Shown here piece after piece: positions 18,201 through 59,124 of a DNA stretch of 64,000 nt. Numbering within the stretch: the stretch's first letter is position 1; each line of letters begins with the position of its first letter. The stretch lies in contig JAMCWX010000049.1 in assembly GCA_023480885.1 (NCBI GenBank), positions 1-64,000 of the forward strand. Direction: 5' to 3'. The position numbers were made by a program, and so were the translations under genes. The DNA is from Chloroflexota bacterium (lineage in GTDB: Bacteria > Chloroflexota > UBA6077 > FW602-bin22 > JACPRP01). The notes beneath the pieces were generated by a model. That model saw only the letters and a program-made list of their open reading frames with translations. It made no database searches and was not told the origin of the DNA.

Positions 18201-19419
18201 CGATCCAGCCAAGTACGCGCGGAGAGTGCCATCGTCTGTGCGCTCCGGCGAGACCGTGCTCGTCGCACGCATGGCCGATCACGCCGAAGCGGTGGCCGCG
18301 GCCATGCGCTCTTTCGGCGTGAATGCCCACGTGCTGCCAGAGTCCGACGAGCGCAGCATGGCGCTGAGCCGTGACGTGACCAGCGGCAAGGAGTGCCTGC
18401 CTTTCAGGGATTCTCTGGGAGTGTTCCTGCGAATGGCCGAAGACGGCGCCATTCCTAGAAACGCCAGAGCGCTGATGGCAGGCTCATTCGGACCGTGCAG
18501 ACTCGGCAAGTACGCGCAGGAACAGCAAAAAATACTGTCGGAAAGAGGCGTGCAGATCGAGATCATGACCACAGTCTCGAACAACGCCTATTCAGACCTC
18601 GGCCTGGGCACGAAGTTCGAGCTACTGGCGTGGCAAGGGATAGTTGCCACCGACCTGCTGCAGAGGATGCTCTGGAAGACCCGCCCCTACGAGCGAGCCC
18701 GCGGTCTGGCCAATCAGGTGTATGACGAGTATCTTCGACAACTAATTAAGGCCATCGAAGCGCGACAGCCCGTCGACACGCTCATGAGGCAAGCCCAGAG
18801 GGCATTTGTCGAGGTGCGCAACCATTCGCTTCCACGGCGACCGCTGGTAGGCATCAACGGCGAGATATACCTGCGCGCGAACCGTTTCTGCAACAAGGAC
18901 CTGGTAACACTATGCGAGGCCCACGGTCTGGAAGTCGAAGTTGCCCCTATGGCCGAATGGATTAAGTACACTACCATCAGGAACGTGGAAGACGCCTGGA
19001 CAAACCGCGAGATGGGCAGACTGATGAAAGGTCTGTTGCGGAAGCTTGCCACCGATTTCTACGAAAGGCGCATGACTTCGTGGGTGACGGAACTGGTTCA
19101 CGAGTCTGAGCCCAGCACGCGCGAGTTGCTGGAAACATCATCGAGCTATCTGCCCAGTTGCAACGGCTCCGAGGCAGTGCTATCGCTTGGCAGCGGAATT
19201 AGGCAGATGCGCGATCCACATTTCGCGGGGGTGATCTCGGTTATGCCTCACGGATGTATGCCTGGAGGAATAGTCGCCGCGCTCACAGAGCAAATATCGA
19301 AGGAATACGGCAACAAGCCCTGGATTAGCCTGACATACGACGGATTCCCCGACAAAGTGAATCCCGAACGCATCGCCGACCTCGCCGAGCAACTCCGCCA
19401 CAAATCGTCGCAGGTTTGA
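15244..19419 (+). CDS. Double-domain 2-hydroxyacyl-CoA dehydratase activase-related protein
   Basis: 1391 residues from a GTG. Two ASKHA (BadF/BcrAD-type) ATPase domains lie in tandem: GLDIGAVNIRAAVLD with CAAGTG at C141, and GVDVGSTSTKAAIIS (about 320) with CAAGTG at C442. In true activases that Cys binds the dimer-bridging 4Fe-4S cluster. A cysteine-containing linker (YQCENSC, about 604) leads to a DUF2229 domain (from about 668) and a C-terminal HgdB-like part (SGKECLPFRD, GPCRLGKYAQEQ near 1083). The fused architecture and length match the large activase-related family, which probably performs ATP-driven low-potential electron transfer. No dehydratase subunits or acyl-CoA genes adjoin it, so the substrate is unknown. 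Confidence 0.9.
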   Translation: MSSNNGGKSSVSTSPIYLGLDIGAVNIRAAVLDHLSRIVYLDSERIFKGPATAVAALVERLQQHVSTERLAGAGVCGSGRHIYDDQPGWQVFTSPYAAIAGVLWDQSEPKTIIAIGGQSSLVIGLERGMEKPWRVARSPLCAAGTGRFLEQQASRLGIPIEEFGRRALEWTEPPPRVAARCSVFAKSDLIHLQQKGWPVAAMLAGLSDSVARMIQAQWRDRFEPPIYCIGGVAANEGVVRALSQVLGTQQIVVPPEHGSREAIGAALLARDASICPSSLYPSKDGESEVYFLSRGLERTVTSDGWQPWNLQTKVVDAYLGVDVGSTSTKAAIISPSGDVIAKTYLMTAGQPLEAVKKVMANLAPMVEDKVKVKAVGVTGSGRYLVGNFIGADLIKNEITAQTRAALHIDPQVNTVFELGGQDSKFVYLENGTVLDYQMNKACAAGTGSFIDELAEQLGISTRTGEFAQLAFSADEQLDLGEKCTAFMSQAVTSAQHAGVSREVIVSSLSTSLAKNYLSKVVGTRKAGDRVFLTGAVFYNEAAVAAFKAELPSKTFVVPDHKEVTGAIGAALLAMEAMPEEAESGFKGFSRLAQEGYKLSNFNCYQCENSCAISVMTTDTGARLFYGSRCDLYDSAGAGAKKGKAPTPFTTREALLFEGYEPTKGTGAVVGVPRALLTHDLAPMLTGFLNALGLRARYSSPTSKRLIERSLEHAYTDSCFPIKLLHGHVAELLDEGVDYILIPDSIRMSVKDGDEDQRYSCPLVQASPYIVRSVYNLGDRLLDPVIDFSRGDAEVIRNFAKVAQRMGFGEKEGVKAIKEGLARQHEFEAKLREAGKEVLNELAHKPDALGVVLLSRAYNAQDAGANLGMAQELDRLGVVPIPLDFLPLDDVDVKSITDRPYWNYERKILAASKLIAENPQLFGLFLSNFGCGPNSFIQNVVEDIMGSKPLGNIEIDEHAAEAGYITRIEALIDTIRGYRRAGLQLGGDPAKYARRVPSSVRSGETVLVARMADHAEAVAAAMRSFGVNAHVLPESDERSMALSRDVTSGKECLPFRDSLGVFLRMAEDGAIPRNARALMAGSFGPCRLGKYAQEQQKILSERGVQIEIMTTVSNNAYSDLGLGTKFELLAWQGIVATDLLQRMLWKTRPYERARGLANQVYDEYLRQLIKAIEARQPVDTLMRQAQRAFVEVRNHSLPRRPLVGINGEIYLRANRFCNKDLVTLCEAHGLEVEVAPMAEWIKYTTIRNVEDAWTNREMGRLMKGLLRKLATDFYERRMTSWVTELVHESEPSTRELLETSSSYLPSCNGSEAVLSLGSGIRQMRDPHFAGVISVMPHGCMPGGIVAALTEQISKEYGNKPWISLTYDGFPDKVNPERIADLAEQLRHKSSQV

Positions 19420-19427
19420 ACTCCGGC

Positions 19428-19682
19428 TTACCTAACGTTGAACGCTTGGCGACGGCCCTGAGGACCGAGCGTCTTCAGCCGCCGTTCCTGCCGCAGCGCA
19501 TCGCCTTGTGTCCCACATTGGATAGAACCTAACAAGCGTACGGGACGTCGCCCTCTGGTGTACCGGGCGCCAACGCCATCATTGTGTTCACGCACTCGCC
19601 GGTCAACATCCCTTGTGGCGCCGATATAGGTAGTGCCATCAGCACACTCGAGAAGATAAACAAACCAGCCCCGGTTTTCCAT
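19428..19682 (-). CDS. Stand-alone GIY-YIG nuclease (UPF0213-like)
   Basis: 84 residues from the ATG at 19682. Motifs: FVYLLECADGTTYIG (variant GIY...YIG), catalytic Arg in VDRRVREHN, catalytic Glu in ALRQERRLK. The track's extra 13 N-terminal residues (PNRKERKDR) are the translation of the dispersed CGCAAAG repeat and probably not protein. Small GIY-YIG proteins are single-domain endonucleases of mostly unknown role. It converges on the activase gene with only 8 bp between stops. Its link to the repeat may mean the pair is a mobile unit. Confidence 0.8.
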   Translation of the reverse strand: MENRGWFVYLLECADGTTYIGATRDVDRRVREHNDGVGARYTRGRRPVRLLGSIQCGTQGDALRQERRLKTLGPQGRRQAFNVR

Positions 19683-19696
19683 ATCCCCTCTGCGAT

Positions 19697-19715
19697 CTTT
19701 GCGCTCTTTGCGGTT
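19697..19715 (-). repeat. Copy of the CGCAAAG repeat arm
   Basis: On the reverse strand this is identical over 19 bases to the start of the left arm at 1253-1271. It lies 14 bp upstream of the GIY-YIG start. A partly matching third unit (TCGCAGAG) follows. Confidence 0.8.
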
Positions 19716-19748
19716 TGGCATATTTTTCGTACTAGCACGGATCTCAGG

Positions 19749-20615
19749 CTAGCGGCGAAGCAAGCCCGTAGGCCGCCAGAAAAGAAAGGCGATGAGCATA
19801 GCGAACAGCAGCAGATTGGACCAGGCGAAGGGGATCAGTAAGCCGCTCAGACCGAGGACTATCCCGATGAACAGGCCTGCCAGCAGAGAGCCGAGCACGC
19901 TGCCAACGCCGCCGAAGATGACCACGAGAAAAGCGTAGATTAGCCAGGAGAACTGGGTCGCAGGATCGAAGGTGTAGATCAGGGCCATCGCGACGCCTGC
20001 CACGCCAGCCGACGCGAGCGCGAGGCCGTAGGTGATGCTCGTGACGCGCTCCAGATCGATGCCGCACAGGGCCGCTCCGACGCGGTTCTGCCAAACTGCT
20101 CGCACCGCTTTACCCGTAAACGTGCGCTCGAGGTAAAAGTAGAGAGCAGCTATGGTTGCCAGGGCCAGCCCAAAGCCAAGAATGTGGGCGATGGGCATGC
20201 TGATGCCTGCTATAGACAGCGCTTTGCCCGTGTAAACAGTGTTGATCACTCTGGGGTCAGGCGACCACACATAGGCTATACCGTTTTCAATAGCGGCGGC
20301 CAGCCCGAAGGTGAGCATCATCGAGGCTAACTCCAGATCGTGCGTCCGCTCGCCCGTGGGTTTAATGAGCGTCCTATGAAACGCCACACCTAGCGAAAAC
20401 ATCAAGGGGACTATGAGCACTAAGGCGAGAAGAGGATCGACGTGGAACATCTGAAGCAGCCAGTAGGCGACGTAGGCGGCGATGACGGCGAAGGCTGCGT
20501 GGGCCACGTTGATCGCGCGGGTGACGCCCCATGTAAGGCTGAAACCCACGCCCAGAAGCGCGAAGATGCCACCGGTCAAGATGCCGCTGACGAGGGACTG
20601 GGTCACCTGATACAC
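19749..20615 (-). CDS. livH: Branched-chain-type ABC transporter permease (LivH)
   Basis: 288 residues with about eight membrane helices. GLSLTWGVTRAINVAHA-type N-terminus (GFSLTWGVTRAINVAHAAFA) and the EAA-like cytoplasmic segment GKAVRAVWQNRVGAALCGID are diagnostic of LivH. The start is GTG at 20615, with AAGGAGAC 11 bp upstream. It is the last gene of the importer operon, 81 bp after livK with a strong hairpin between. It would form the translocation channel with LivM. Confidence 0.93.
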   Translation of the reverse strand: MYQVTQSLVSGILTGGIFALLGVGFSLTWGVTRAINVAHAAFAVIAAYVAYWLLQMFHVDPLLALVLIVPLMFSLGVAFHRTLIKPTGERTHDLELASMMLTFGLAAAIENGIAYVWSPDPRVINTVYTGKALSIAGISMPIAHILGFGLALATIAALYFYLERTFTGKAVRAVWQNRVGAALCGIDLERVTSITYGLALASAGVAGVAMALIYTFDPATQFSWLIYAFLVVIFGGVGSVLGSLLAGLFIGIVLGLSGLLIPFAWSNLLLFAMLIAFLFWRPTGLLRR

Positions 20616-20650
20616 TTTCTAGCTGTCTCCTTCCTGTGCCGGCGCTGAGT

Positions 20651-20689
20651 CAGGGGTCTGCCGGGACACACATCCCCGGCAGACCCCTG
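20651..20689 (-). other. Intercistronic stem-loop between livK and livH
   Basis: CAGGGGTCTGCCGGG pairs with CCCGGCAGACCCCTG (15 bp) around a 9-base loop. There is no T-tract after it on the transcribed strand. Placed just behind a binding-protein gene, it fits an mRNA-stabilising or partial attenuating hairpin that keeps the binding protein in excess. Confidence 0.7.
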
Positions 20690-20696
20690 GACAAAA

Positions 20697-21965
20697 TCAT
20701 TTCTTCCAGGCGGGCTTGGGGTAAACGGGATTTGTGGTCTTCACCGCCCCTGGCCAGATAAGCTCCGGGCGTCCGTTGATGACCTGGGTCGCGTAGGAAT
20801 ACGGTGCGGGCAGGCCACGCTCGTCGAACTTGAACTTGCCGCCGATGGTATCTATTTCGTGGGTCCGCAGGTAGTTCGCGATGACGTCCTGGTCGAGGGA
20901 GCGCGCGCCCTCCACGCCCTTCTGCAGCGTCTCCATCCACGCGTAGCCAAAGAGGAAATACTGGGGAGCGCTGGGAAGGTTGAACTTCTCCTTAGCCACT
21001 TTGTTCAGATCTGCCACGCCGGGGAACGGTAGCTTGTCGTGCATCGCCGTCCCGGAGAACACGTAGTTGCCGTCGTCTCCCAGCTCTGTAGTCCAACCCG
21101 GCACCAGAGTGCCAATGCCCTGAATGACAATCTTAGGGTTATAGTCGAGGGTCTTTAGCGCTCGGATAGTCTGGACGCCGTCGGCAAAGGAGCCATTTGC
21201 CAGGAACAGCTCGGCGCCGCTGGCCTTCGCCTTCGCGACCAGCGGCGCGGCATCGGCAAGGGGCAGATCGTACATCTCGTCGACCACCAGCTCAATGCCA
21301 AGCCGCTTCAGGCCGTCATACATACTATCCTTCACTGCCAGGCCGATGGGGTTGTTCATCGTGATGGCCGCTGCCTTTTTCGGGCGCTGGTCGGCAGGAA
21401 CCGTTGCCAGCCACTGCCAGATGCCCTCGTACCACCACTGGCCCATCAATGGCGGTCCACCGAAGGAGTATTTGTAGCCTTGCTTGAACGAGGCCATGTG
21501 GCCGCCCATAGATACGTAAACCTTCTTGAAACGCTCCGCCAAGGGCATCTGCGCGGCGGCCGAAGTGCCGGGGTAGCCGCCGGCTACCAGGTCGACCTTG
21601 TCGACGGTGATGGCGCGCTCGAGCAAATTGACCGCCTTCTCGGCCGAGCTTCCGTCGTCGTAAATGGTCAGCTCGACCTTGCGTCCAAGCAGTCCACCTT
21701 TGCTATTGAGTTCCTCGGCCCAGTAGCGATAGCCCTTCTCGACCCACTTGCCAGTCTCGGCGAAGGCGCCGGTAAGCGGCAGAGTGGCCCCGATTTTGAG
21801 CGGCTCGCCGCTGGCCGCTGGCGACGCCGCCGTCTTCGGGGCGGCTGGCTGGGTTGCCGATGTCGGCGTGCTCGGCGGCGGCGCTGCGCACGCCGTGAGC
21901 GCCAGGGCCACCAGGATGCCCAGGGTGAGACACCGCGCGAAAAGGTGTGCCAGAATGCGATTCAT
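20697..21965 (-). CDS. livK: ABC transporter substrate-binding lipoprotein (LivK-like)
   Basis: 422 residues. A lipoprotein signal peptide ends in LTAC, with Cys26 as the lipidation site. A low-complexity Ala/Pro/Ser/Thr linker follows, then a type I periplasmic-binding fold (KIGATLPLTGAFAETGKWVEKG). The start is well supported (AAGGAGGAGAAGAGC-ATG). The family binds branched-chain amino acids, but also amides, aromatics and urea. The presence of BKACE and cyclase genes in the operon makes a carboxylic or amino acid other than Leu/Ile/Val quite possible. Confidence 0.92.
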   Translation of the reverse strand: MNRILAHLFARCLTLGILVALALTACAAPPPSTPTSATQPAAPKTAASPAASGEPLKIGATLPLTGAFAETGKWVEKGYRYWAEELNSKGGLLGRKVELTIYDDGSSAEKAVNLLERAITVDKVDLVAGGYPGTSAAAQMPLAERFKKVYVSMGGHMASFKQGYKYSFGGPPLMGQWWYEGIWQWLATVPADQRPKKAAAITMNNPIGLAVKDSMYDGLKRLGIELVVDEMYDLPLADAAPLVAKAKASGAELFLANGSFADGVQTIRALKTLDYNPKIVIQGIGTLVPGWTTELGDDGNYVFSGTAMHDKLPFPGVADLNKVAKEKFNLPSAPQYFLFGYAWMETLQKGVEGARSLDQDVIANYLRTHEIDTIGGKFKFDERGLPAPYSYATQVINGRPELIWPGAVKTTNPVYPKPAWKK

Positions 21966-22005
21966 GCTCTTCTCCTCCTTTTTGCAGGATACTTATTGCC
22001 TCGAT

Positions 22006-22683
22006 TCAGCCATACTTGCGCACGTACTCGGAAAGATCGTGCCCTACCTGAGCGTGATGCCGGCGCAAGACCTCGGACGCGAGCTTTCCATCGCGAGCGC
22101 GGCACGCCCCCAGGATTTGCCTGTGCTCCGCATTGGCGTCCGGCATACGCCCTAACAGCGTGACGAAGGTGTGCAGATAGTGCTGGGTGGAATTGCGCAG
22201 CGTGACAATCAGGTCACACAGGCGTTTGCGTCCCGAAGCTTCGTAGATGATGGAGTGGAAGCGGCGATTCGCGTCAATCAGAGCTACGACGTCGATCTCT
22301 GCCTGCTCCATCACGTCGACGCATCGGGAAAGCTCCTCCAACTGCGATGAGTCCAGCCCTGGCACTCCTAACTCCGCCGCCATCGCTTCCAGGGTGGCTC
22401 TGATCTCGTACACCTCGAGAATCTCGTCCGCCGTGAGCGCTGTGACCACCGCGCCACGATGTGGGTAGACTGTCACCAGCCCCTCGGCCTGCAGCGCGCG
22501 CAGGGCCTCCCGCACGGGCATGGTGCTCGTCTCAAAACGGGCAGCCAGGTCTTCCTGTCGCAGCCACTGGCCGGGACGCACGCGACCACTGATGATCTCG
22601 TGGCGCAACCACTCGACCATCGCGTCGGTAATTCGCCGATATAGTTGTGTTGCGCCTTGCGCATAGGGAGCCGGGAATCCCAT
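22006..22683 (-). CDS. GntR-family regulator, FCD/FadR subgroup
   Basis: 225 residues from ATG 22683. AGGAGGT lies 12 bp upstream, and a TTG at 22716 is the alternative. The winged helix-turn-helix has the GntR signature (IISGRVRPGQWLRQEDLAARF, then MPVREALRALQAEGLV). The FCD ligand domain follows, with likely metal/ligand residues in IDANRRFHSIIYEASG and EHRQIL. It is encoded inside the operon, between livF and livK. It probably binds the palindrome embedded in the operon promoter at 27025-27040 and responds to the imported compound; this is inference. Confidence 0.9.
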   Translation of the reverse strand: MGFPAPYAQGATQLYRRITDAMVEWLRHEIISGRVRPGQWLRQEDLAARFETSTMPVREALRALQAEGLVTVYPHRGAVVTALTADEILEVYEIRATLEAMAAELGVPGLDSSQLEELSRCVDVMEQAEIDVVALIDANRRFHSIIYEASGRKRLCDLIVTLRNSTQHYLHTFVTLLGRMPDANAEHRQILGACRARDGKLASEVLRRHHAQVGHDLSEYVRKYG

Positions 22684-22750
22684 CGCTTGCTGCTGACCTC
22701 CTCTAGCCCTCAACACTGATCACTGCCGCCATTTTCTTCGCCTCCTGTGC

Positions 22751-23458
22751 TCAGATTCCGAGGTAAGCTTGCCGTAACGACTCGTCGCCCAAGAATTCCT
22801 CTGCCGTTCCGTGGCGAACCATTCGCCCATTTTGCAACACATAGGCGCTGTGCGCCAGTTGCAGCGCCTGGACGACATCCTGCGAGACGAGCAACACGCC
22901 GAGGCTGCGCTCTTTGTTGAGCTGCCTGACGGTGTGCAGGATCTCAGTAGCCAGCGCGGGCGAAAGGCCCAGTGTGGGCTCGTCGAGCATCAACAACCGC
23001 GGCCCGGCCATAAGGCCGCGTCCAATGGCGACCATCTGCTGTTCGCCGCCGCTGAGCGTGCCGACCAGTTGCCCTAACCGAGCGCCAAGTTTCGGGAACA
23101 AGTGAATGACGTACTCCAGGCTGGCCGCCAGGTGCCGCCGCGCCGCCGGCAAATAGGCGCCAAGCTCCAGGTTCTCACGCACTGTCATCGACGGAAAGAG
23201 CTGGCGACCTTCTGGGACATGCACCAGCCCCAAATCGCAGATGCGATGCGGCTGCAGGCTGTCCAATCTCTGTCCGTCAAAGGCGATGGTGCCCGAGGCT
23301 GGCCGCAGCAAGCCTGAGATAATACGAAGCAGCGTGGTTTTGCCTGCGCCGTTGGAGCCAAGCAGGGCGACGAATTCCCCCTGCTGAACTGCCAGTGAGA
23401 CATCCACTATGGCCGGTTGCGCGTCGTATCTGAAGCTCAGGTCCCGCACTTCAAGCAT
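22751..23458 (-). CDS. livF: Branched-chain-type ABC transporter ATPase LivF
   Basis: 235 residues, the LivF size. Walker A GSNGAGKTT, Q-loop region VPEGRQLF, ABC signature LSGGEQQMVAIGRGL and Walker B LLMLDEPTLGLSP are all intact. The VPEGRQLFPSMTV stretch distinguishes LivF from LivG. Its start overlaps the livG stop by 8 bp. It energises uptake together with LivG. Confidence 0.96.
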   Translation of the reverse strand: MLEVRDLSFRYDAQPAIVDVSLAVQQGEFVALLGSNGAGKTTLLRIISGLLRPASGTIAFDGQRLDSLQPHRICDLGLVHVPEGRQLFPSMTVRENLELGAYLPAARRHLAASLEYVIHLFPKLGARLGQLVGTLSGGEQQMVAIGRGLMAGPRLLMLDEPTLGLSPALATEILHTVRQLNKERSLGVLLVSQDVVQALQLAHSAYVLQNGRMVRHGTAEEFLGDESLRQAYLGI

Positions 23459-24188
23459 AGGCAGGCCCCAGATATGCTGCCAGCACCGCGGCGTCCCTTG
23501 CGATATCCTGCGGCAGCCCTTCGGCTATCTTCTTTCCCTCACCAAGCACCATGATGCGCTGGCAGGTTTGCATCGCGGCTTTCATCACGTGCTCGATCAT
23601 GAACACGGTTATGTCGAGCTCATCCCTGATGCGGAAGATAAGCTCGATTGCACCGTCGATCTCTACAGGGTTAAGCCCCGCGAAAACTTCGTCCAGTAAC
23701 AAGAGCTTCGGCCCGGTCGCCAGGGCGCGGGCGATCTCAAGCCGCTTCTTGAATGCCAGGGGCAGATCCCTGACAGGCTGGTCATGGTGGTCGACCAGCC
23801 CGACGAAGCGCAGCGTGTCCCGCGCTCTGTGCTCCGCCTCCACAACGCTGGCCAGCCGCTGGCCGTAGAGGGCGCTTGCCGTGACGTTCTGCAGCGTCGT
23901 CAGTTCGGCGAAGGGGCGGACTATCTGGAACGTGCGACCGACGCCCAGATGGGCTATCTGGTGTGGCCGAAAGCGGGCAAGATCGTGGCCCAGGAAGGTG
24001 ATGCGGCCGTGCGTCGGCCGCATCAGGCCTGAGATAAGATTGAAAAGGCTGCTCTTTCCAGAGCCATTGGGCCCAATCAGTCCGACAATTTCCCCTTCGT
24101 CGACGTGGAAATCGACGCCCTTGAGGGCGGCGAGACCGCCGAAATAAAGGGTCACACCTTCGCCCTGGAGCACATTCCTGGAACTCAT
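23451..24188 (-). CDS. livG: Branched-chain-type ABC transporter ATPase LivG
   Basis: 245 residues. Walker A GPNGSGKSS is present, and the LivG-typical VGRTFQIVRPF segment marks the Q-loop. The signature region is degenerate: instead of LSGGQ the chain reads PLAFKKRLEIARALATGP, a variant seen in some LivG proteins. Walker B is LLLLDEVFAGLNP, with Glu supplied by DEV. It lies between the cyclase and livF genes and overlaps the latter. Confidence 0.95.
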   Translation of the reverse strand: MSSRNVLQGEGVTLYFGGLAALKGVDFHVDEGEIVGLIGPNGSGKSSLFNLISGLMRPTHGRITFLGHDLARFRPHQIAHLGVGRTFQIVRPFAELTTLQNVTASALYGQRLASVVEAEHRARDTLRFVGLVDHHDQPVRDLPLAFKKRLEIARALATGPKLLLLDEVFAGLNPVEIDGAIELIFRIRDELDITVFMIEHVMKAAMQTCQRIMVLGEGKKIAEGLPQDIARDAAVLAAYLGPAYA

Positions 24189-24224
24189 CTAGAGACCTTT
24201 GTCATCCTTTCGGCATTGCCTGCG

Positions 24225-24995
24225 CTAGTCGTCGCCCAGGATGGCCACCGCTCGGCACCACCCGGCGCTACCGCCCGTGAGTTTCACAGGGAAGCAGGCT
24301 ACGGTGAAGCCAAAGGGTCTGGGCAGCAGGTCCAGGTTCGCCAGTTTCTCTATGTGGCAATACTCTTTCTCCATCCCCACCCGATGCGCCTCCCAGATGA
24401 CGCGGGGATCGGCGCTGCGCTGGAACTCGTCCCTTATCGCCCAGAAGGGGCGGTCCCATCCCCAGGCATCGATGCCCATCACCTTGATGCCCTTATCGAT
24501 CAGCCAGCTTGTCGCCCCTGCCGATACGCCGCAGCCGGCGTCGAAGTAGTCGCGCTGGCCCCAGCGCTTATCAGCGCCCGTTTGGACCAGGACGATGTCG
24601 CCAGGCTTTAGAGCGTAGTCGATCTTGCGCAGGGCTTCCCGAAAATCCTCGATCTGCAGCTTTGCGCCCTGCTCTTTGTGGCGGAAATCCAGGACTACGC
24701 CAGGACCGAAGAACCACTCGAGGGGCAACTCGTCGATCGTTCGCGCTCGCTGGCCACCGCTGGTAGGATAGTAATGCCAGGGAGCGTCGACGTGGGTGCC
24801 CGCGTGGGAGATGAGCGTTGCCTCGTCGTTGGCCCAGCCCAGCCCACCGGGTAGGTCTTCTTCCTTGCAGCCAAAGAACTGCATCATCAGCGGCGCCGAG
24901 CTCTTGTGGTCCAGATGGACCACCTTAAGGCCCAGGGGCTCGCTGGGGCTTTCCTCAGTTGGCACGCTCAGGTCGATAATGCGCAACCGGCTCAT
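24225..24995 (-). CDS. Cyclase-family (kynurenine formamidase-like) metal hydrolase
   Basis: 256 residues from ATG 24995, preceded by TTGAGGAGG; the track start overlaps the BKACE gene needlessly. The metal-binding HxGTHxDxPxH motif is present as SHAGTHVDAPWHY. Relatives hydrolyse N-formylkynurenine, isatin or other cyclic or amide compounds. Other conserved pieces are GDIVLVQTGADKRW and MGIDAWGWD. Its place between BKACE and transporter genes points to hydrolysis of the imported compound or of its cleavage product. Confidence 0.88.
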   Translation of the reverse strand: MSRLRIIDLSVPTEESPSEPLGLKVVHLDHKSSAPLMMQFFGCKEEDLPGGLGWANDEATLISHAGTHVDAPWHYYPTSGGQRARTIDELPLEWFFGPGVVLDFRHKEQGAKLQIEDFREALRKIDYALKPGDIVLVQTGADKRWGQRDYFDAGCGVSAGATSWLIDKGIKVMGIDAWGWDRPFWAIRDEFQRSADPRVIWEAHRVGMEKEYCHIEKLANLDLLPRPFGFTVACFPVKLTGGSAGWCRAVAILGDD

Positions 24996-25036
24996 CGCAA
25001 ACCTCCTCAATTGCTCCTCTTCGTGTTGCCCCGCGG

Positions 25037-25972
25037 TTAGCAACGCACCTCTTCCTTGCCCTTTAGTTTCAATTTCTGGCGCACCTCGTCGGGTGTGGCT
25101 ACCGGGCGTTCGAACTCCTCGGCCAGCTTAACAGCCCTTGCCACCAGCTCGGCGTTGCTTTTCGCCAGGACGCCGCGGCGAATGTACAGGTTATCTTCTA
25201 ACCCGACGCGGACGTGGCCGCCCATCATAATGGCCAGGGCAGCGAGATGGAACTCCTGTGGATAGCCAACGCCGATGATCGACCACATATATCCGTCAGA
25301 CCCGAAAAGCCTGTCGGCAGTTTGCTTTAGAGTCAGCATGTCTTCGATGCCGGAGCCTATGCCGCCGAGGACACCCGTCACGAACTGCATCCAGAGCGGT
25401 TCCTGCCGCAAGCCCTGGGAGATCAGATACTTCAGGTTGTAAAGGTGGCCGACATCGTAGATCTCGAACTCGCTTTTCGTCTGATTCTCGGCCATCACGG
25501 TGACAAAGCGCTCCATATCGGCAAAGGTGTTTCGGAAGATGAAGTCCTTCGACGCGAGCAGGTATTTCTCTTCCCAGTCGAACTTGTAGTCTTCTCGCTT
25601 GAAGCGAGCGGTGATGGGATGGACCGAGAAATTCATCGAGCCCATATTGCACGAGGCCATCTCTGGGGCGTAACCGGTGACGACGGCCAGGCGCTGTTCC
25701 GGCGTGAGATACAGGCCGCCGCCTGTAGTGGTACAGACGACCAGGTCAGTGCGCTCCCTGATCAGGCGGAGCATCTCGCCGAAGACCTCGACATCGGAGT
25801 TAGGCATTCCTGTCTTTGGGTCGCGGGCGTGGATGTGGACTACCGCTGCCCCGGCGTCGGCGCAGCGGGCAGCCTCATCCGCTATCTGCCGCGGGGTTAT
25901 TGGCAGGTATGGCGTTTGCGTGGGGACAGTTACTCCACCATTCAGCGCAGCGGTGATGATTAGCTTTTCCAT
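25037..25972 (-). CDS. BKACE-family beta-keto acid cleavage enzyme
   Basis: 311 residues. KLIITAALNGG at the N-terminus, the zinc-binding VHIHARDP motif, and NMGSMNF are diagnostic of the 3-keto-5-aminohexanoate cleavage enzyme family (DUF849). These TIM-barrel enzymes condense a beta-keto acid with acetyl-CoA and split it to acetoacetate plus a new CoA thioester. The ligand-determining residues cannot be matched to a specific substrate by eye. The start overlaps the livM stop by 13 bp, so transport and first catabolic step are coupled. Confidence 0.93.
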   Translation of the reverse strand: MEKLIITAALNGGVTVPTQTPYLPITPRQIADEAARCADAGAAVVHIHARDPKTGMPNSDVEVFGEMLRLIRERTDLVVCTTTGGGLYLTPEQRLAVVTGYAPEMASCNMGSMNFSVHPITARFKREDYKFDWEEKYLLASKDFIFRNTFADMERFVTVMAENQTKSEFEIYDVGHLYNLKYLISQGLRQEPLWMQFVTGVLGGIGSGIEDMLTLKQTADRLFGSDGYMWSIIGVGYPQEFHLAALAIMMGGHVRVGLEDNLYIRRGVLAKSNAELVARAVKLAEEFERPVATPDEVRQKLKLKGKEEVRC

Positions 25973-26988
25973 TTCTCCCTCCTGAGGAACTTGAGCCAGG
26001 AACCGTCGTGCGCTCGCGCTGATCTGCTGGTGAAACCAAGGATGCCGTCGGGCATAGTGACGACCACGGCAACCAGCAACAGACCGAAGACTACGCGAGC
26101 AATCTCGGTACCGATAGATAGCGTGAGCAACTCGCTAAGCACGCTCAAGGTGATCGCGCCTAGCGTAGGCCCAAACCAGATGTGCCGGCCCCCAAAGAGC
26201 GCCATCAGCACTGTGGTCACCGAGATGTAGGCATCGAACATCGTGTTGGGATGGACGTAGGTACGGTAGTAGGCAAATATGCCGCCCACGAGCCCGGCTA
26301 GCGCCGCGCTGAGGACGAAGGCCGTGACCTTCAGGAACGTGGCGTCGACGCCGAAGGTCTGCGCTGCCTCCTCGTCATTGCGAATCATTATCAGACCGAT
26401 GCCGAGCTTGGAGTATTGCACCCAGCGAACGACGAGCAACGTCAGGACGAGAATGGCGAGCATCACCTCGTAGAAAACAGCACGGCTGGTCCAATTATCG
26501 AAGGGCGGGAATGGTAACCAGAAGCCCTGGGCGGCCTTCGTCCAGCTAAGGTTCATCACAACCAGCCGCACAACCATAGTGAGAATCAGCGTCACCAGGG
26601 CAAAGTAAGGGCCGCGCAAGCGCAGGACGGGGTAGCCAACCAGGGCAGCAAAGAGACCGGCCAGCAAAGCAGCGGGAATTGCAGTTATGAAGGGTGACCA
26701 GCCGCTATGGAGCAGGGCGAGACCCGTCGCGTAGCCACCAATGCCAAAGAAAGCCGCGTGGCCGAAGCTGAGATAGCCGGCGAAGCCACCGACGATGTTC
26801 CAACTCGACGCCAGGCTGGCGTACATAAAGGCGATAAAGAGGAAGGAAAGCAGGTATTCACTGGGATGCGTCAGAGGCAGCAGGGCCAGCAACACGGTGG
26901 CCGCGACCATGCCCAGAGGAGCCGACCGCAGTTGCTGCCCTCGACCGCGCATGGCAATGTTGAGCGATGCGCTTATCATCATCGGCAC
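25960..26988 (-). CDS. livM: Branched-chain-type ABC transporter permease LivM
   Basis: 342 residues with about nine helices. SWNIVGGFAGYLSFGHAAFFGIGGYATGLAL and the EAA loop KLGIGLIMIRNDEEAAQTFGVD identify LivM. The start is GTG 26988 or ATG 26982; neither has a strong ribosome site. It is the first gene after the operator-containing promoter, about 30 bp downstream of the predicted transcription start, so the message has a short leader. It forms the channel with LivH. Confidence 0.94.
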   Translation of the reverse strand: MPMMISASLNIAMRGRGQQLRSAPLGMVAATVLLALLPLTHPSEYLLSFLFIAFMYASLASSWNIVGGFAGYLSFGHAAFFGIGGYATGLALLHSGWSPFITAIPAALLAGLFAALVGYPVLRLRGPYFALVTLILTMVVRLVVMNLSWTKAAQGFWLPFPPFDNWTSRAVFYEVMLAILVLTLLVVRWVQYSKLGIGLIMIRNDEEAAQTFGVDATFLKVTAFVLSAALAGLVGGIFAYYRTYVHPNTMFDAYISVTTVLMALFGGRHIWFGPTLGAITLSVLSELLTLSIGTEIARVVFGLLLVAVVVTMPDGILGFTSRSARAHDGSWLKFLRREKWKS

Positions 26989-27020
26989 AGTGCTGCCCCC
27001 CGCCGCTTGAAAGTGCCGAT

Positions 27021-27048
27021 ATTATATCAGATATCTGATACATGTCAA
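27021..27048 (-). promoter_or_regulatory. livM operon promoter with embedded palindromic operator
   Basis: On the reverse strand TTGACA (27043-27048) and TATAAT (27021-27026) are both perfect and spaced 16 bp. The spacer holds TATCAGATATCTGATA (27025-27040), an exact 16-bp palindrome that overlaps the -10. A repressor there would block polymerase directly. The GntR/FCD protein of the operon is the best candidate. Confidence 0.85.
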
Positions 27049-27091
27049 CTGATGAGACGTGACGTGGCGCCAGGAAGTGTCAGGGCTCGGG

Positions 27092-27391
27092 CTAGATGCT
27101 GATGCCAGGGGTTGGTCCCCGTAGCCCGTGTTGCCCCTTCCAGCGCTCCATAAACTGGCCCATGGATTCGACGGGGGTGACCTCTTTCAATTCCACGTAT
27201 GGATCGTATGGGTTGAACTTCTGGCATACATCGCCCTCGTCGCGCCCTTCCACCAAGTTGTATCCGATGCGTCCATCGTGCGAGACGTAAACGATGTTGC
27301 CTTCCACCGGCGTGATTTCTTTGTCGATTATTTTGCGCGCCAGTTCGTCGACCTTCCCCGGTCGAACCTCAGTTTTCACGAAGAACAGCAT
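27092..27391 (-). CDS. Small DUF3303/muconolactone-isomerase-like protein
   Basis: 99 residues from ATG 27391, which follows AGGTGCTCAA. The track's 37 extra residues are not needed. MLFFVKTEVRPGKVDELARKI and a later YNLVEG strand fit a small ferredoxin-like alpha/beta barrel domain as in DUF3303 or muconolactone-isomerase-like proteins. It ends upstream of the livM promoter, so it is probably a separate unit, though in the same direction. It may act on the same compound; function is unknown. Confidence 0.65.
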   Translation of the reverse strand: MLFFVKTEVRPGKVDELARKIIDKEITPVEGNIVYVSHDGRIGYNLVEGRDEGDVCQKFNPYDPYVELKEVTPVESMGQFMERWKGQHGLRGPTPGISI

Positions 27392-27587
27392 TTGAGCACC
27401 TACCTTACAAAGCTCTATGCGATCTACACAGGCTCCCTCGACGACGAATCTACATTCGCCCAACCCCCCTCTTCTCGGGCCGAGCGAGATTGATCGTGGC
27501 ACTTAGCGTGCAATAACTGTGCCATTCCGCGGCTGATTCTAAACACACTGTAACAGTCGGGAGCAACTATCATTAACCAATTGCGCA

Positions 27588-27616
27588 TTGACGCGCCTTT
27601 CTGCGGGGCGTAATGT
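27588..27616 (+). promoter_or_regulatory. Candidate promoter of the glycoside hydrolase gene
   Basis: TTGACG and TAATGT separated by exactly 17 bp, about 60 bp upstream of the ATG. The 27392-27678 gap otherwise shows no convincing gene. Confidence 0.4.
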
Positions 27617-27678
27617 GAATACATGAGGTCACCCATCGCTTCGTGTTTTCGCCAATATGCGTGACAGAACTAGAATAA

Positions 27679-29013
27679 ATGTGGCAATCTCTCAGACAGG
27701 CACCGCCGGCGCTATCCGGGCTACTGGGGCTTTTCCTTATCATCGCGCTCTCCAGCCATAATGCTGGCATCGCAACGGGCAGGGTCTGGGCACGCCCTCA
27801 ATTAGAAACTGGAGGCCAAAACGAAGCAACGTATGCAGTGTACCTGCCTCAGGTTCACGGGCCAATTGCCCTTCCTTCTCCTACAGCTACGCCAACCCAT
27901 ACCCTGACGCCTACTGTTTCTCCAACACACTCTGCCACGCCATCGCCAACACTTACTATCACGCCAGTCCCTGATCTCACGCCGTCACCAACACTGATAC
28001 CTACCGCGGTCTCTGATGCCACGCCTTCGCCGACTCAAGTATCCACCCCAGTCCTTGATCCCACTCCTTCGTCGACACCCGCACCCCAACCGACACCTGT
28101 TCCCGTGCCGCGAGGCAGCGTGCGATTCGGCGTCGCGGGCGCGGGTTATCCAGGTCGCGACAGCAAAGCCAACCTGGACGCTATGGGCATATACTCATAC
28201 TACGAATACGACTGGGGTGAGCCTTTGCCTGGCAAGGAAAGGATACAAATGGTAGCCAGAAATTATATAAGCGACAGTGGGCTCGACAATTTCATTCGTT
28301 CCCACCCTGGCATGTACTGGCAAATTGGAAACGAGCCAAACGTCCCGAATCAGGACAATCTCACTCCTACTCAATACGCCCAGAGATACCACGATTGGGC
28401 CCAGCGTATCAAAGCCATCGACCCCTCGGCCAAGCTCCTCAATGCCGGCATAGTGAACTACCCTGATATCTTTGGCATACCTGGAGGTGTACCTTACCTC
28501 CGGGATTTCCGTGAATCTTACCGCTCCCTTTACGGCGCTTATCCTCAAGTCGACGTCTGGAATATCCACGCGTTTCCACCGTTTTACCAGACCCCCAACG
28601 GGAAACTACACTCATATTGCGATACCGCAATGCTGAAACAGTTCGTTTCAGACGCGGTTCAGTATCTGCGAAGTGCTGGAGAGAGCAATCCGGTGTGGTT
28701 GTCGGAGTTCGGAATGGACTGGGCGGACGACCCCGACCCGTGCACCCTAACTTTTATGAAAGACATGATCAACTGGCTGAAGCAGACCCGCCTCGTCGAT
28801 CGCTGGTACTGGTGGACAGTTTGCGCGTGGTGCCTTGACGGCAAAGGAGGTAGCCTTTTTGGCACCGATGGCAATCTCAGCGCACTCGGGCAAACGTGGC
28901 GCGATCTCGCCGCCCAGGACGCATCCCCAAACGTGGTCGATAACGCGGCATCGACTGGCCCTCCCTTAGCTTTAGTGACTGAGCCCGCCGAAACTCAGTG
29001 TGTCTTGGAATAG
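27679..29013 (+). CDS. Secreted/anchored clan GH-A-like glycoside hydrolase with Pro/Thr linker
   Basis: 444 residues. An N-terminal hydrophobic helix (LLGLFLIIALSS) is a signal or anchor. Residues about 65-145 form a Pro/Thr/Ser-rich linker of TPTP/SPT repeats, as in exported cell-surface enzymes. The catalytic domain has WQIGNEPN (E219, likely acid/base) and VWLSEFGMDW (E343, likely nucleophile), the placement of retaining clan GH-A enzymes. WNIHAFPPFY lies between them. The exact GH family cannot be named. It begins the rightward set of polysaccharide genes and may trim or release the surface glycan. Confidence 0.8.
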   Translation: MWQSLRQAPPALSGLLGLFLIIALSSHNAGIATGRVWARPQLETGGQNEATYAVYLPQVHGPIALPSPTATPTHTLTPTVSPTHSATPSPTLTITPVPDLTPSPTLIPTAVSDATPSPTQVSTPVLDPTPSSTPAPQPTPVPVPRGSVRFGVAGAGYPGRDSKANLDAMGIYSYYEYDWGEPLPGKERIQMVARNYISDSGLDNFIRSHPGMYWQIGNEPNVPNQDNLTPTQYAQRYHDWAQRIKAIDPSAKLLNAGIVNYPDIFGIPGGVPYLRDFRESYRSLYGAYPQVDVWNIHAFPPFYQTPNGKLHSYCDTAMLKQFVSDAVQYLRSAGESNPVWLSEFGMDWADDPDPCTLTFMKDMINWLKQTRLVDRWYWWTVCAWCLDGKGGSLFGTDGNLSALGQTWRDLAAQDASPNVVDNAASTGPPLALVTEPAETQCVLE

Positions 29014-35552: not shown

Positions 35553-37493
35553 ATGTTAACGATGCCTCTCGCACGATCACGAAGACTTCTGCTCGCCTTA
35601 TCGATGATAGCCCTCATGACTATCGCAGGCGGCCTGGGCTATCAAAGGTATCTCCTTGCCACAGAGGCATCGCGAAGCGCGCAAGCGCACCTCAACATAG
35701 CCGAGGCGCAGATCAGAGAACTGGCGAAGAACCCAGCAGGACTCGACGCTCGGCGCGCGGAAACAATCGTCGAGGAACTGGACGCTGCACGGGTGGAGCT
35801 TGGAGTTGCGCTCGCCGAGGTCGGAAGGCTACGCCCTCTGCTCCGTGTAATTTCCGACCTGCCTGCGATCGGCAACAACGCCAGAGCCGCGGACCACCTT
35901 CTCGAGATAGCCGACTACGGCTTGCGAGGATGGGATGAGTCGCGTGAGCCTATTCAAGTCCTCCTAGGAGCGATCACAGACCAGGGAGATGCGCGTGGCT
36001 CCGAAAGACTTCCCAAAGTGACACAGGCTGTGCGGTTGGGATTGGAGAAAGCGTCCGCCACAATCGGGTCGATTCGAGGAGCATATCAAGGCATCCCACG
36101 AGAAGGACTGTTTCCTCCATTGGCCAGTTCGGTGGATCTTCTTGGCAAGGGACTGGCCACTGCCAGCAAGGCCATTGAGACGGCGAACGAAAGCTCCGAA
36201 GCAGCATCGGCAGTCCTGGGCATCGACGGCGAGCGCGTCTATCTCGTGCTCGTGCAGGACACTGGCGAGATACGCCCGACGGGTGGCTTCATCGGCAACT
36301 ACGGGATCGTCAAGGTCTCGCAGGGCCGCATGGTAGAGCAGAAGTTCGCGGATGCTTATGACCTCGACTGGCCTTATTACTACTCCGGCCAGGCATCTCC
36401 GCCAGTGGCTATGTTCAAGCGTTACTTCCCCGAGTCGACCTTTTGGGCGCTGCGTGATTCGAACCTGTGGCCGGATTTTCCGACGTCCGCGACTCAGGCC
36501 GCACGCTTTGCGATCGCAGAAGGCGCCACAGACCGCGTGGACGGCGTCATCGCCTTCACGCCAGCCCTGGCAGGGCGCCTCTTGCGCGTCGTCGGTCCCG
36601 TGACCGTGCCTGGATTCGACGAGGTGATAACCGACCAGAACTTCGAGGAAAGGATCAGGTACTACCAGTACCACGCCATACCAGAGAGCGTCCAAAAACG
36701 CCTCGGCGCCGAGTTCGAGCGAGGCCGCAAGCTGTTCACCTCATTGTTGATAAGGACTTTGATCGAGAAACTGAACGCGTTGGACGCGAAGTCTACATTC
36801 GCCCTTATCCGTGCGCTGCAAGAAGCCGTGCGAGAAAAAGACCTGCTCGCGTATTTCGAAGATCCCCGACTCCAAGCGTTGGTCGAGCGCTACGGCTTGA
36901 GTGGCGATGCAAAGCCCGCGACAGGCGACTATCTGTGGATCGTGGATATGAACCTCAGCGCCAGCAAGGACAATCTTTACGTTCAGCAGACAGCCCAGTA
37001 CACCGTTACAATCGCACCTCAGGGAGGCGCCAACGCCGAACTGGAGATCACCTATGATTACCAGCGCACAGGAGATCTATACTTATTCACCATCAAACGG
37101 GGTTATTACGGGGACTATCTCAGAGTGTATGCGCCGCCGGGGAGCGTACTGCGGGGGAGCGATGGGGTTGACGAGGAGTTTCAGACAGTTGGGGAACACG
37201 GCAAGACTGTGTTTGAGACCTTCCTAAGGATCTATCCCAGCACGACGAGAACCGTGAAGTTGTGTTACTGGGTGCCGTTCAAGATATGGCCCGACGATCC
37301 AGAGCGCAAATACGAGCTACTCGTGCAAAAGCAACCAGCATCCAACATCAAGGCCCTGGGCGTGAAAGTCATCCTGCCCGAGGGATCGATTGTGACCAAT
37401 CGGCAAAACCTGACGGGCGAGAGCAACACCCTGGAGTACCGTGGCCCTCTCTCCAGCGACCTGAGCCTGACAGCAGACTTCAAGTTGCCGTGA
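35553..37493 (+). CDS. DUF4012-domain exported protein
   Basis: 646 residues. An N-terminal membrane helix (LLALSMIALMTIAGGLGY) is followed by a helical region (residues 40-170) and the DUF4012 hallmark: VYLVLVQDTGEIRPTGGFIGNYGIVKV near 230. The C-terminal portion looks beta-rich (AQYTVTIAPQGGANAELEITYDYQ). These proteins are common in Chloroflexota and Actinobacteria glycan loci; their function is not established. It is the only rightward gene in the second half of the window. A perfect palindrome after it may terminate transcription. Confidence 0.88.
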   Translation: MLTMPLARSRRLLLALSMIALMTIAGGLGYQRYLLATEASRSAQAHLNIAEAQIRELAKNPAGLDARRAETIVEELDAARVELGVALAEVGRLRPLLRVISDLPAIGNNARAADHLLEIADYGLRGWDESREPIQVLLGAITDQGDARGSERLPKVTQAVRLGLEKASATIGSIRGAYQGIPREGLFPPLASSVDLLGKGLATASKAIETANESSEAASAVLGIDGERVYLVLVQDTGEIRPTGGFIGNYGIVKVSQGRMVEQKFADAYDLDWPYYYSGQASPPVAMFKRYFPESTFWALRDSNLWPDFPTSATQAARFAIAEGATDRVDGVIAFTPALAGRLLRVVGPVTVPGFDEVITDQNFEERIRYYQYHAIPESVQKRLGAEFERGRKLFTSLLIRTLIEKLNALDAKSTFALIRALQEAVREKDLLAYFEDPRLQALVERYGLSGDAKPATGDYLWIVDMNLSASKDNLYVQQTAQYTVTIAPQGGANAELEITYDYQRTGDLYLFTIKRGYYGDYLRVYAPPGSVLRGSDGVDEEFQTVGEHGKTVFETFLRIYPSTTRTVKLCYWVPFKIWPDDPERKYELLVQKQPASNIKALGVKVILPEGSIVTNRQNLTGESNTLEYRGPLSSDLSLTADFKLP

Positions 37494-37532: not shown

Positions 37533-37568
37533 GGCCGTAGAGACGCAGCATGCTGCGTCTCTACGGCC
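37533..37568. repeat. Perfect 36-bp palindrome between convergent genes
   Basis: GGCCGTAGAGACGCAGCA is followed directly by its exact reverse complement, and a second hairpin (CCTGCCG-TG-CGGCAGG, 37567-37582) abuts it. It resembles small dispersed palindromic repeats and may act as a bidirectional terminator. There is no T-tract. Confidence 0.8.
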
Positions 37569-37606: not shown

Positions 37607-39082
37607 TCACGGCACCCACCCCGAAATGCCGATTCCGACAACGAGGTAGGCCATAGCAACCAGGAAGAACGCTGTGATCCAGTACAAGTCCACCATCGTA
37701 GCCAGCACGAAGGCCGCCGCACTTCGCCACATAGTTCTAGTCCCGTCAATTGTGACCTCGCCCCCGTCATAACTCGCCTCAACGCGGCCAGCATTCCCAG
37801 CGCCCATGACGCGCTCCGCAGCGACGATAAGCCCCAGCATCAGCCACAGCAGAACCGTCGGCTTAGCCCCCAGCGTTATGGCGTCGGTCAGACCGAACAC
37901 TAGGTAAGACGCAATGCCTGCCAGCATACCCACAACTGCCGCCTGCACCGACACATCTCGATACGCTCGGCGATACGCCCGCCATCCCGCGTAAGCCGTG
38001 CAACCCCACAGTCCGAGGAAACCCAGAAATCCGCCGAGACCGAGGTCCACCGCCGTCTGCAGATAGATGTCATGCGCGTGCGGAATCCGCGCGTCAGGTC
38101 CGACGAGGAACGATGGATAAAGCGTATCGAGGACGACGGGAAACGTGTTCAGCCCGATGCCCGTGAACGGGAAATCCTCGATCATGTCCCTGGCACGGTC
38201 CCAGATTTCCAGCCTGCCCAGCAGCGAGTTTCCGCCCGATGCCGAGCTGATCGCTTCGACCTTGAGGAAGAGCTCCGACACAGCCTGCGTGTCCACGCTG
38301 ACGGCAACCGCTAGCGCTCCGACGGCGGCTAAAGCCAGGACCACGCCTGCAAGACGCCAGCGCCAGACAAAGAGACCGAGAACGGCGACTGACAGGCCGA
38401 CCAGAGCCGAGCGGGAAACCGAGAGAGCTAGTACGCCAAGTCCCGTGACAATTACAGCAACCAAGAGGACTCTGTGCAGCAGCCTTATTCTGGCGCGCAG
38501 CAGCAGCGCCAGGGGAAGAGGCAGCAAGAACGCCAGCGTTCCGCCGACCTCGTTCGGGTGGAAGCCAGCGGTTGGGCCAACCGAGCTTTGAATACCCTTT
38601 ATCAGCCTCGGGACCAGAGCATACGCGCGCTGGAACAAAGGGTATTTGCCGGCGTTCCACTCAGTGCCGACGAGGCCGAGCAAAGAGATGGCGGCGATGC
38701 AGGCGATCAAGATCGCGACGCCAAGCCAGACATGGCGCTGGGTGGAAACGTTGTCGACAACAGCATAGTAAACAAAAACGCCGAGGACAATGCCGTAGAA
38801 CTTCGGCATGCTCAGTGAGAGGTCGACAGAGGGATAGAGGCTGGCGATGGTCGTGAGGAAGATGACAATTATGGGGAGGTCAAGAGAGGTGCGGACAAGC
38901 CATTTACGGCCCGTGAAGCCGCGCAGTATCCAGCCTGAGAATAGCAGGCCCAGGCCAACCCAGGGCAGGAACGAGCGGGGGAAGAGAAGGAGAGGGGTAG
39001 CGACAACGGCTAGCAGTAGCTCCGAAAGAGAAGGATGCAGAGGGATGGGAAGATTCTTATTCAACTTGGCGACACGTAACAC
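37607..39082 (-). CDS. O-antigen ligase/polymerase family protein (Wzy_C)
   Basis: 491 residues, about 12 helices. The Wzy_C region shows ALSVSRSALVGLSVAVLGLF, then an extracytoplasmic loop with FTGIGLNTFPVVLDTLYP and HAHDIYLQTAVDLGLGGFLGFLGLWG, the pattern of WaaL/Wzy proteins. It would polymerise or ligate lipid-linked glycan outside the membrane. The GTG at 39082 has no strong ribosome site, so the start is uncertain. The window encodes a second such protein at 60.8-62.3 kb. Confidence 0.9.
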   Translation of the reverse strand: MLRVAKLNKNLPIPLHPSLSELLLAVVATPLLLFPRSFLPWVGLGLLFSGWILRGFTGRKWLVRTSLDLPIIVIFLTTIASLYPSVDLSLSMPKFYGIVLGVFVYYAVVDNVSTQRHVWLGVAILIACIAAISLLGLVGTEWNAGKYPLFQRAYALVPRLIKGIQSSVGPTAGFHPNEVGGTLAFLLPLPLALLLRARIRLLHRVLLVAVIVTGLGVLALSVSRSALVGLSVAVLGLFVWRWRLAGVVLALAAVGALAVAVSVDTQAVSELFLKVEAISSASGGNSLLGRLEIWDRARDMIEDFPFTGIGLNTFPVVLDTLYPSFLVGPDARIPHAHDIYLQTAVDLGLGGFLGFLGLWGCTAYAGWRAYRRAYRDVSVQAAVVGMLAGIASYLVFGLTDAITLGAKPTVLLWLMLGLIVAAERVMGAGNAGRVEASYDGGEVTIDGTRTMWRSAAAFVLATMVDLYWITAFFLVAMAYLVVGIGISGWVP

Positions 39083-57939: not shown

Positions 57940-59124
57940 TCATCGTTGCTTGAGACCGCAAATTCGGTAGTAGTCCAGATTCCCAAGGGTGGCGATCTTG
58001 GTCAGTTTTTGAACAACGTCCCATTGTATAAACGTGTGAGCTAGCTCACAACCCGACCAGCATCCGCTGTGAGCGCATTTCCTCACGCGCTGCCGCACCA
58101 CCCCAGCATGCGCCGAGTTCCAAATGGTGTCGAAAGGCTTATCGCTCACATTTCCCATCACTCGTTCAGGATTTGTCGCCATAGTCTGGCAGGGATGTAC
58201 AGAGCCATCGAAACTGATATAGACCGAGGCGAAACCAGCGAAGCAATGCAATGGGCGCCTTTCGGGGCGCGTGAGCCACTGGCGCATACCATATACATTG
58301 TTTGAGTCACAGAGCCGCAAAAGCTCCTGAATCTGCTCTGAAGTGTACCCGTGATATCCATAACCCGCGTTTTCATTGCGAAAGAAAGGTCCTACCTGTA
58401 ATACACACCAGTCGAACGGTACTCCCTGATCTGCCAGGTGTCGACTGAATTCTTCGATGTAGTCCACGTTTTTCGGCTGCACTACTGCGGCAGTAAGTAC
58501 TTCCAGTTGAGGATGGTCCCTGCGTAGCTGCAACAAAGTCTGCACGGTCGCCCAGGTGCGTCGGAAAGCCTGCGGCACGCCTCGGACCTGGTCGTGTATA
58601 TCCTCTGGGCCGTCCAGTGAGCATCGGATGCGAAGCCGCTTTTGCTTGGCCATTCTCGGGAGGATCGTTTCCACACAACTCACCACCCTATCGGTGAGCT
58701 GCCCATTGCTGGCAACTGTTACTAACCGCACGTCGGGAAGATCGAGGAGACCCTCAACGAGGGGAACAATATCCTGATAAAGGAACGGCTCGCCACCACT
58801 AACCCCGATGCCTGTTACACCAGCTCGCGGCAACTCGATGGGAACCTGGCGCAGCACGGCGGATTCCGAGAATACCTTCAGCCATTGGTTGTAGCTCAAC
58901 TCCTTAGATTTCAACGTTTGGAAGTCCTCCCCCCAGATGCTGCACATGATGCATCGGCTAGTACACCGCAGAGTAGGAGCGAAACTTACATAACCCACTG
59001 GGACAGGGGTTGCTAGGTCCCATCTGTATGCCAGGTGGTTACGCAAGATTGCTGACACCAGCTTGGGGCTCGAATAGTCAGTTAGAAATCTCCAGCCGTG
59101 ATCTACTGTCGATCGAATGCTCAT
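57940..59124 (-). CDS. Radical SAM/SPASM-type protein (6)
   Basis: 394 residues from ATG 59124, which follows AGAGGAAA; a TTG at 59145 is the alternative. Cluster motif CTSRCIMC, GGE as GVSGGEPFLYQ, and RIRCSLDGPEDIHDQVRG match SPASM enzymes. The C-terminal cysteines (CFAGF, VHPCQT, CAHSGCWSGCE) fit auxiliary cluster binding. It resembles the 52.3-kb protein in plan (CxxxCxxC-xx-WGE, SLDGPE), so the two may catalyse related steps. No peptide precursor is adjacent. Confidence 0.88.
   Translation of the reverse strand: MSIRSTVDHGWRFLTDYSSPKLVSAILRNHLAYRWDLATPVPVGYVSFAPTLRCTSRCIMCSIWGEDFQTLKSKELSYNQWLKVFSESAVLRQVPIELPRAGVTGIGVSGGEPFLYQDIVPLVEGLLDLPDVRLVTVASNGQLTDRVVSCVETILPRMAKQKRLRIRCSLDGPEDIHDQVRGVPQAFRRTWATVQTLLQLRRDHPQLEVLTAAVVQPKNVDYIEEFSRHLADQGVPFDWCVLQVGPFFRNENAGYGYHGYTSEQIQELLRLCDSNNVYGMRQWLTRPERRPLHCFAGFASVYISFDGSVHPCQTMATNPERVMGNVSDKPFDTIWNSAHAGVVRQRVRKCAHSGCWSGCELAHTFIQWDVVQKLTKIATLGNLDYYRICGLKQR

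Follow-up and report, generated by a model that had tools for sequence, protein, structure and literature searches.

A candidate autoregulatory operator in the promoter of a GntR/FCD-encoding transport and BKACE operon from Chloroflexota

Operators of FadR-subfamily (GntR/FCD) regulators generally follow the consensus NyGTM-N0-1-KACNy, often written TKGT/ACMA, and in FadR and AraR an arginine of the recognition helix hydrogen-bonds to an operator G (PMC4494728). Atypical motifs are known for this subfamily, namely TTATMKATAA for BioR and TGGTATA repeats for NanR, and additional half-sites near FadR-subfamily sites have been described (PMC4494728). The promoter analysed here belongs to an operon that encodes a regulator of this type. 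Based on sequence comparisons, the feature at 27018-27040 would be the autoregulatory operator of the operon's own FCD repressor and fall into a non-canonical operator class, a reading to which we assign a probability of roughly 75%.

Promoter, palindrome and operon

The feature lies within a 64,000-nucleotide stretch of DNA, analysed as a whole and referred to as the window. Read 5' to 3' on the minus strand from 27048 to 27018, the promoter consists of TTGACA, the 16-nt spacer TGTATCAGATATCTGA, TATAAT and ATC, its two hexamers together agreeing with the sigma-70 consensus at 12 of 12 positions. Among the promoter matches listed for 19000-28000 it is the single 12/12 match and the sole strong one. 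The palindrome TATCAGATATCTGATA overlaps the -10 hexamer by that hexamer's first two bases. A sequence-only reading had described a perfect palindrome inside a TTGACA-16-TATAAT promoter whose operon encodes its own GntR/FCD regulator; the first description holds exactly (palindrome read from 27040 to 27025) and the second is confirmed by PF00392 and PF07729 matches at 22006-22716.

Table 1 Features of the promoter region and the operon in window coordinates.
Feature	Position	Strand	Remarks
-35 hexamer TTGACA	27043..27048	-	6/6 match to sigma-70 consensus
Perfect 16-bp palindrome TATCAGATATCTGATA	27025..27040	no strand	two overlapping GATATCTGAT half-sites, GATATC in common
-10 hexamer TATAAT	27021..27026	-	6/6; 16-nt spacer; TG before it
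Candidate operator GATATCTGATATAATATC, 18 bp	27018..27035	-	12/14 to GATNTNTGATCANANATC; profile rank 1
livM-like ABC permease	25960..26988	-	operon gene 1
BKACE (beta-keto acid cleavage enzyme)	25037..25972	-	401.1 bits, near but under NCBIfam cut-off 430
Cyclase-family hydrolase PF04199	24225..25043	-	
livG-like ABC ATPase	23451..24188	-	
livF-like ABC ATPase	22751..23458	-	
GntR/FCD regulator P0001	22006..22716	-	operon gene 6; recognition helix STMPVREAL, residues 64-72
Periplasmic binding protein (Peripla_BP_6) of ABC transporter	20697..21965	-	
livH-like ABC permease	19749..20615	-	final operon gene

Perfect even palindromes of at least 16 bp number four in the window compared with 1.1 +/- 0.9 expected from first-order simulations, and the palindrome by itself, being near chance in 64 kb, is weak evidence. 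The feature is notable because the palindrome coincides with a full 12/12 consensus promoter: at a rate of about 1.7e-5 per position, our own arithmetic gives about 5e-4 for a palindrome within a given promoter of about 30 bp. TATCAGATATCTGATA is present once in the window, allowing up to 3 mismatches, while its own genome holds one exact copy, two copies with 2 mismatches and one with 3. The two 2-mismatch copies were rejected as further sites, both being located within long ORFs. Two more perfect 16-bp palindromes, TGTGAGCTAGCTCACA and CTTCTTTGCAAAGAAG, are found in the window at 58035-58050 and 49866-49881. Separately, a perfect 36-bp inverted repeat, GGCCGTAGAGACGCAGCATGCTGCGTCTCTACGGCC, far above chance, lies at 37533-37568 between the convergent ORFs 35553-37493 (+) and 37607-39082 (-) and may be either a terminator working in both directions or a palindromic mobile element.

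Downstream of the promoter, the genes follow in the order livM-BKACE-cyclase-livG-livF-gntR-SBP-livH, with neighbours overlapping or tens of bases apart, and apart from gntR no regulator gene was found in the operon. The BKACE falls below the threshold of the NF053538 equivalog (3,5-dioxohexanoate:acetyl-CoA acetone transferase). At 24225-25972, the PF04199 cyclase adjoins the BKACE, resembling the dihydrophloroglucinol cyclohydrolase/triacetate lyase pair and here found together with a liv-type transporter. In the anaerobic phloroglucinol cluster of Clostridium scatologenes, too, a C-C hydrolase of the cyclase family accompanies a triacetate acetoacetate-lyase of the BKACE family (PMC10470551); unlike that cluster, the window operon encodes neither a phloroglucinol reductase nor a dehydrogenase, and its BKACE scores under the 3,5-dioxohexanoate family cut-off. 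By analogy, a role in uptake and breakdown of a cyclic 1,3-diketone is possible. Because the cyclase and BKACE pair resembles the phloroglucinol ring-opening hydrolase and triacetate lyase (PMC10470551), the comparison further suggests a keto acid as inducer, but the BKACE lies under the cut-off of the phloroglucinol-type family.

The regulator P0001 and sites at same-helix loci

P0001 consists of an N-terminal GntR winged helix-turn-helix domain (PF00392, E 1.4e-17, 63.6 bits against a cut-off of 27) and a C-terminal FCD effector domain (PF07729, E 4.5e-26, 92.1 bits against a cut-off of 24.3). The metal/effector site of FCD domains comprises an Asp or Asn and three His; candidates for these residues in P0001, placed by a rough sequence alignment with 3c7j, are Asn150 and His154 (NRRFH), His198 (AEHRQ) and His220/221 (RRHH), which would agree with a carboxylate effector held through a metal. 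In the helix STMPVREAL, Thr65 occupies the position at which FadR-type proteins have arginine, a common though not obligatory feature. The GT...AC boxes of the canonical TKGT/ACMA operator, again common and not obligatory, are absent from both TATCAGATATCTGATA and GATATCTGATATAATATC, and Thr65 would fit an operator lacking them. A scan of genome contigs found no close P0001 orthologues. The nearest relative in 400 genomes of the phylum (L113) is 45% identical, carries the helix SRIPVREAL and has no STMP-type site at its locus. A further locus (G002), with a regulator 42% identical and the helix SRMPIREAL, was rejected as a shared-site case, having a different inverted repeat near its promoter.

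FCD genes encoding STMP[VI]REA were gathered from 400 Chloroflexota genomes, 217 actinomycete genomes and plasmids. The STMP[VI]REAL helix is also present in Deinococcus aetherius (L133, 39.9% overall identity to P0001), in three Chloroflexota genomes (L157, L158 and L159) and in one actinomycete (L160), the STMP proteins of L157-L160 being about 26-33% identical to P0001. In Deinococcus aetherius, ATGTTTGATCAAACAT precedes a divergent operon for a sugar transporter, and GATATCTGATCAAATC lies some 35 bp ahead of gntR. At L157, GATATCTGATCAGAAATC lies between gntR and a liv-type operon that diverges from it, and at L160 GATATGTGATATCACATC is upstream of gntR. At two STMP loci the site sits between the -35 and -10 elements: L158 has TTGACA-TTGGATCTCTGATCAGA-TACTGT upstream of a livHMGF-SBP-esterase-gntR operon and L159 has TTGACT-TTAGATCTTTGATCACA-TAATGT ahead of an operon ending in gntR. 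A further STMP gene, L161, has two sites only, both with 3 mismatches. Viral contigs with an STMP coding pattern turned out not to contain GntR genes, and the plasmid FCD genes taken for comparison encode SR/SK/SI-type helices. Long perfect palindromes that differ by helix were also seen upstream of other FCD genes (L024, L033, L115, L116, L019, L032 and L135), examples being TGATTATATATAATATATAATCA with SMTPVREAL and TTGTATACAA with SRTP types.

Two of 4 other STMP genes have the 10-mer GATATCTGAT upstream, compared with none of about 68 other FCD genes, and TCTGATCAGA is restricted to STMP loci among the 159 loci compared; genome-wide, site matches with up to 2 mismatches are found in about the number expected by chance. 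A symmetric weight matrix was built from six sites (two from L133 and one each from L157, L158, L159 and L160), with the window excluded. It places 27018-27035 first among 63,983 window positions at 22.1 bits, the next position scoring 12.4, and none of 40 simulated windows reached this value (highest 17.8). The promoter of the regulator's own operon thus carries a GATNTNTGATCANANATC-like site, identical at 12 of 14 positions. In leave-one-out runs, each training site ranked first or second within its own locus. It should be noted that the motif was built after the window had been seen and that L133g and L157 were first spotted via a window-derived heptamer, so these statistics are partly post hoc. 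Reduced matrices served as a guard against this bias. Without any site sharing GATATCTGAT, a set that retains L160, one base off the window 10-mer, the window site again ranked first at 20.5 bits, reached in 0 of 40 simulated windows (maximum 16.4); with L158 and L159 alone it ranked first and was equalled in 2 of 40.

GATATCTGATATAATATC takes in the entire -10 element together with half of the spacer, on its downstream side. A core-promoter position is common to the window, L158 and L159; the exact phase is not, the site starting 7 nt after the -35 hexamer in the window versus 3 nt in L158 and L159. The right half-site of GATATCTGATATAATATC is imperfect, consensus CA being replaced by AT where TATAAT must stay. 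This co-occurrence of helix and site over unrelated loci, on balance, favours STMP-helix FCD regulators forming a DNA-specificity class in Deinococcota, Chloroflexota and Actinomycetota, which would read GATNTNTGATCANANATC and not a GT/AC palindrome within otherwise diverged FCD proteins, a single Arg-to-Thr change marking the switch in operator code. No report of the palindrome, or of CTGATCAG, together with GntR turned up in a literature search; within the literature searched, neither the recognition sequence nor the helix class appears to have been described, the kind of switch itself being well known.

Distribution of the palindrome and alternative explanations

A GntR/FCD dimer could instead bind TATCAGATATCTGATA itself, the 18-bp register being a mere by-product of the -10 sequence. 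The perfect symmetry speaks for this, as does the occurrence of the identical 16-mer in a similar position in actinomycetes. Scanning the genomes of 84,980 species for TTGA-N0-12-TATCAGATATCTGATA returned 22 stretches, 5 of which (L108-L112), from four Jiangellales-type genomes (three Phytoactinopolyspora and one MAG), contain CTTGACA followed 8-11 nt later by the palindrome. One precedes a GntR/FCD-DHDPS operon and the others a sialidase-Opp operon, with an orthologous GntR encoded in the same cluster wherever the contig permitted the check; here, TATCAGATATCTGATA is a probable operator of the cluster's FCD regulator. Support for FCD use of TATCAGATATCTGATA is general only, because this protein is 22% identical to P0001 and its helix, SRLSLREA, is different. 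Further, the palindrome register scores 9.0 bits in the STMP profile versus 22.1 for GATATCTGATATAATATC, and the outward arrangement of TATCAGATATCTGATA, which holds the left half-site of GATATCTGATATAATATC plus its mirror copy, is seen in no STMP locus. We consider binding in the palindrome register unlikely. Since the profile ranks GATATCTGATATAATATC first, the candidate operator is likely shifted off the palindrome register and positioned over the -10.

A check named beforehand was the presence of the same palindrome upstream of homologous BKACE operons, and its literal outcome is negative. In five Chloroflexota genomes (L055, L058, L060, L061 and L064) the eight genes are all present, arranged as gntR-SBP-livH-livM-cyclase-livG-livF-BKACE, relative to which the window operon is a rotated version with the BKACE moved. 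These operons resemble that of the window in their SBP (61-66% identical), BKACE (56-59%), FCD regulator and TTGACA/TATAAT-type promoter; unlike it, they begin with gntR, and their regulators, 33-36% identical to P0001, have the helix SIIPVREC or SLIPVRES where it could be read. TATCAGATATCTGATA is absent from all five promoters, and the best STMP-profile score in them is 8.1 bits. The missing palindrome does not refute the idea of an operator for P0001, because the homologous operons use other FCD regulators and another promoter element; helix and element differ together, which is uninformative on P0001 and not contrary. The f57 genomes L058, L060, L061 and L064 share TCGGATATAATAGTTTAGAAATTATAAAA over the -10, with one base varying in L060, likely the operator of SIIPVREC-helix FCD regulators. 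Across the 400 genomes of the phylum, TATCAGATATCTGATA with at most 1 mismatch occurs in ten.

The palindrome might also be bound by a regulator encoded elsewhere in the genome, the operon's GntR acting at another promoter. A 16-bp palindrome alone names no protein and the regulator gene lies mid-operon, yet the helix-specific site match points to P0001, and one exact copy in the assembly fits a local and not a global regulator, making this explanation improbable. Even less credit is due to accidental symmetry, in which an AT-rich palindrome would have arisen by chance within a promoter that is strong and constitutive: chance alone yields roughly one perfect 16-bp palindrome per 64 kb, but the joint position with a 12/12 promoter of an FCD-encoding operon and the independent profile match speak against it. 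Some FCD proteins are activators at some promoters, for example FadR at fabA, but activation or recruitment by P0001 is the least probable explanation, given that the site lies over the -10 and the spacer and that a promoter matching the consensus should need no activator.

Proposed control and comparison with described regulators

For autoregulation by P0001, we infer binding, its register, repression and not activation, and the inducer. A P0001 dimer on GATATCTGATATAATATC, read from 27035 to 27018, would bury the -10 and the adjoining half of the spacer, leaving RNA polymerase unable to form a closed complex. P0001 would come off the DNA once its FCD domain had bound a carboxylate inducer, which is probably either the substrate being imported or an intermediate of keto-acid type; uptake and breakdown would then be switched on jointly, with autoregulation. 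Mirroring of the left half-site GATATCTGAT upstream would create the visible palindrome, and this additional half-site may raise affinity.

The sequence-only reading had proposed a promoter-embedded operator with the operon's own GntR/FCD protein as a ligand-responsive repressor, and both parts gain support, the latter as the most likely assignment, from the STMP[VI]REAL helix and site shared by unrelated FCD loci. Its equation of the exact operator with the 16-bp palindrome gained no support, given the lower score of that register. The most striking perfect palindrome thus need not equal the exact operator, and comparison of same-helix regulators makes an imperfect site that overlaps it the better fit. 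In this way, a regulator from an uncultured lineage could be linked to a candidate operator from sequence alone, and we offer the rule that an STMP helix predicts a GATNTNTGATCANANATC site.

Like autoregulated repressors of the FadR subfamily, P0001 combines a GntR helix-turn-helix with an FCD domain and would exert local control over a transport and catabolism operon, through a palindromic AT-rich operator, here a candidate, overlapping the promoter. In contrast to that subfamily, the window site is devoid of GT...AC boxes and the helix arginine is replaced by threonine in P0001. BioR and NanR are, like P0001, FCD-type proteins with sites off the consensus, predicted in the present case, and the window half-site GATNTNTGAT matches neither the BioR nor the NanR motif.
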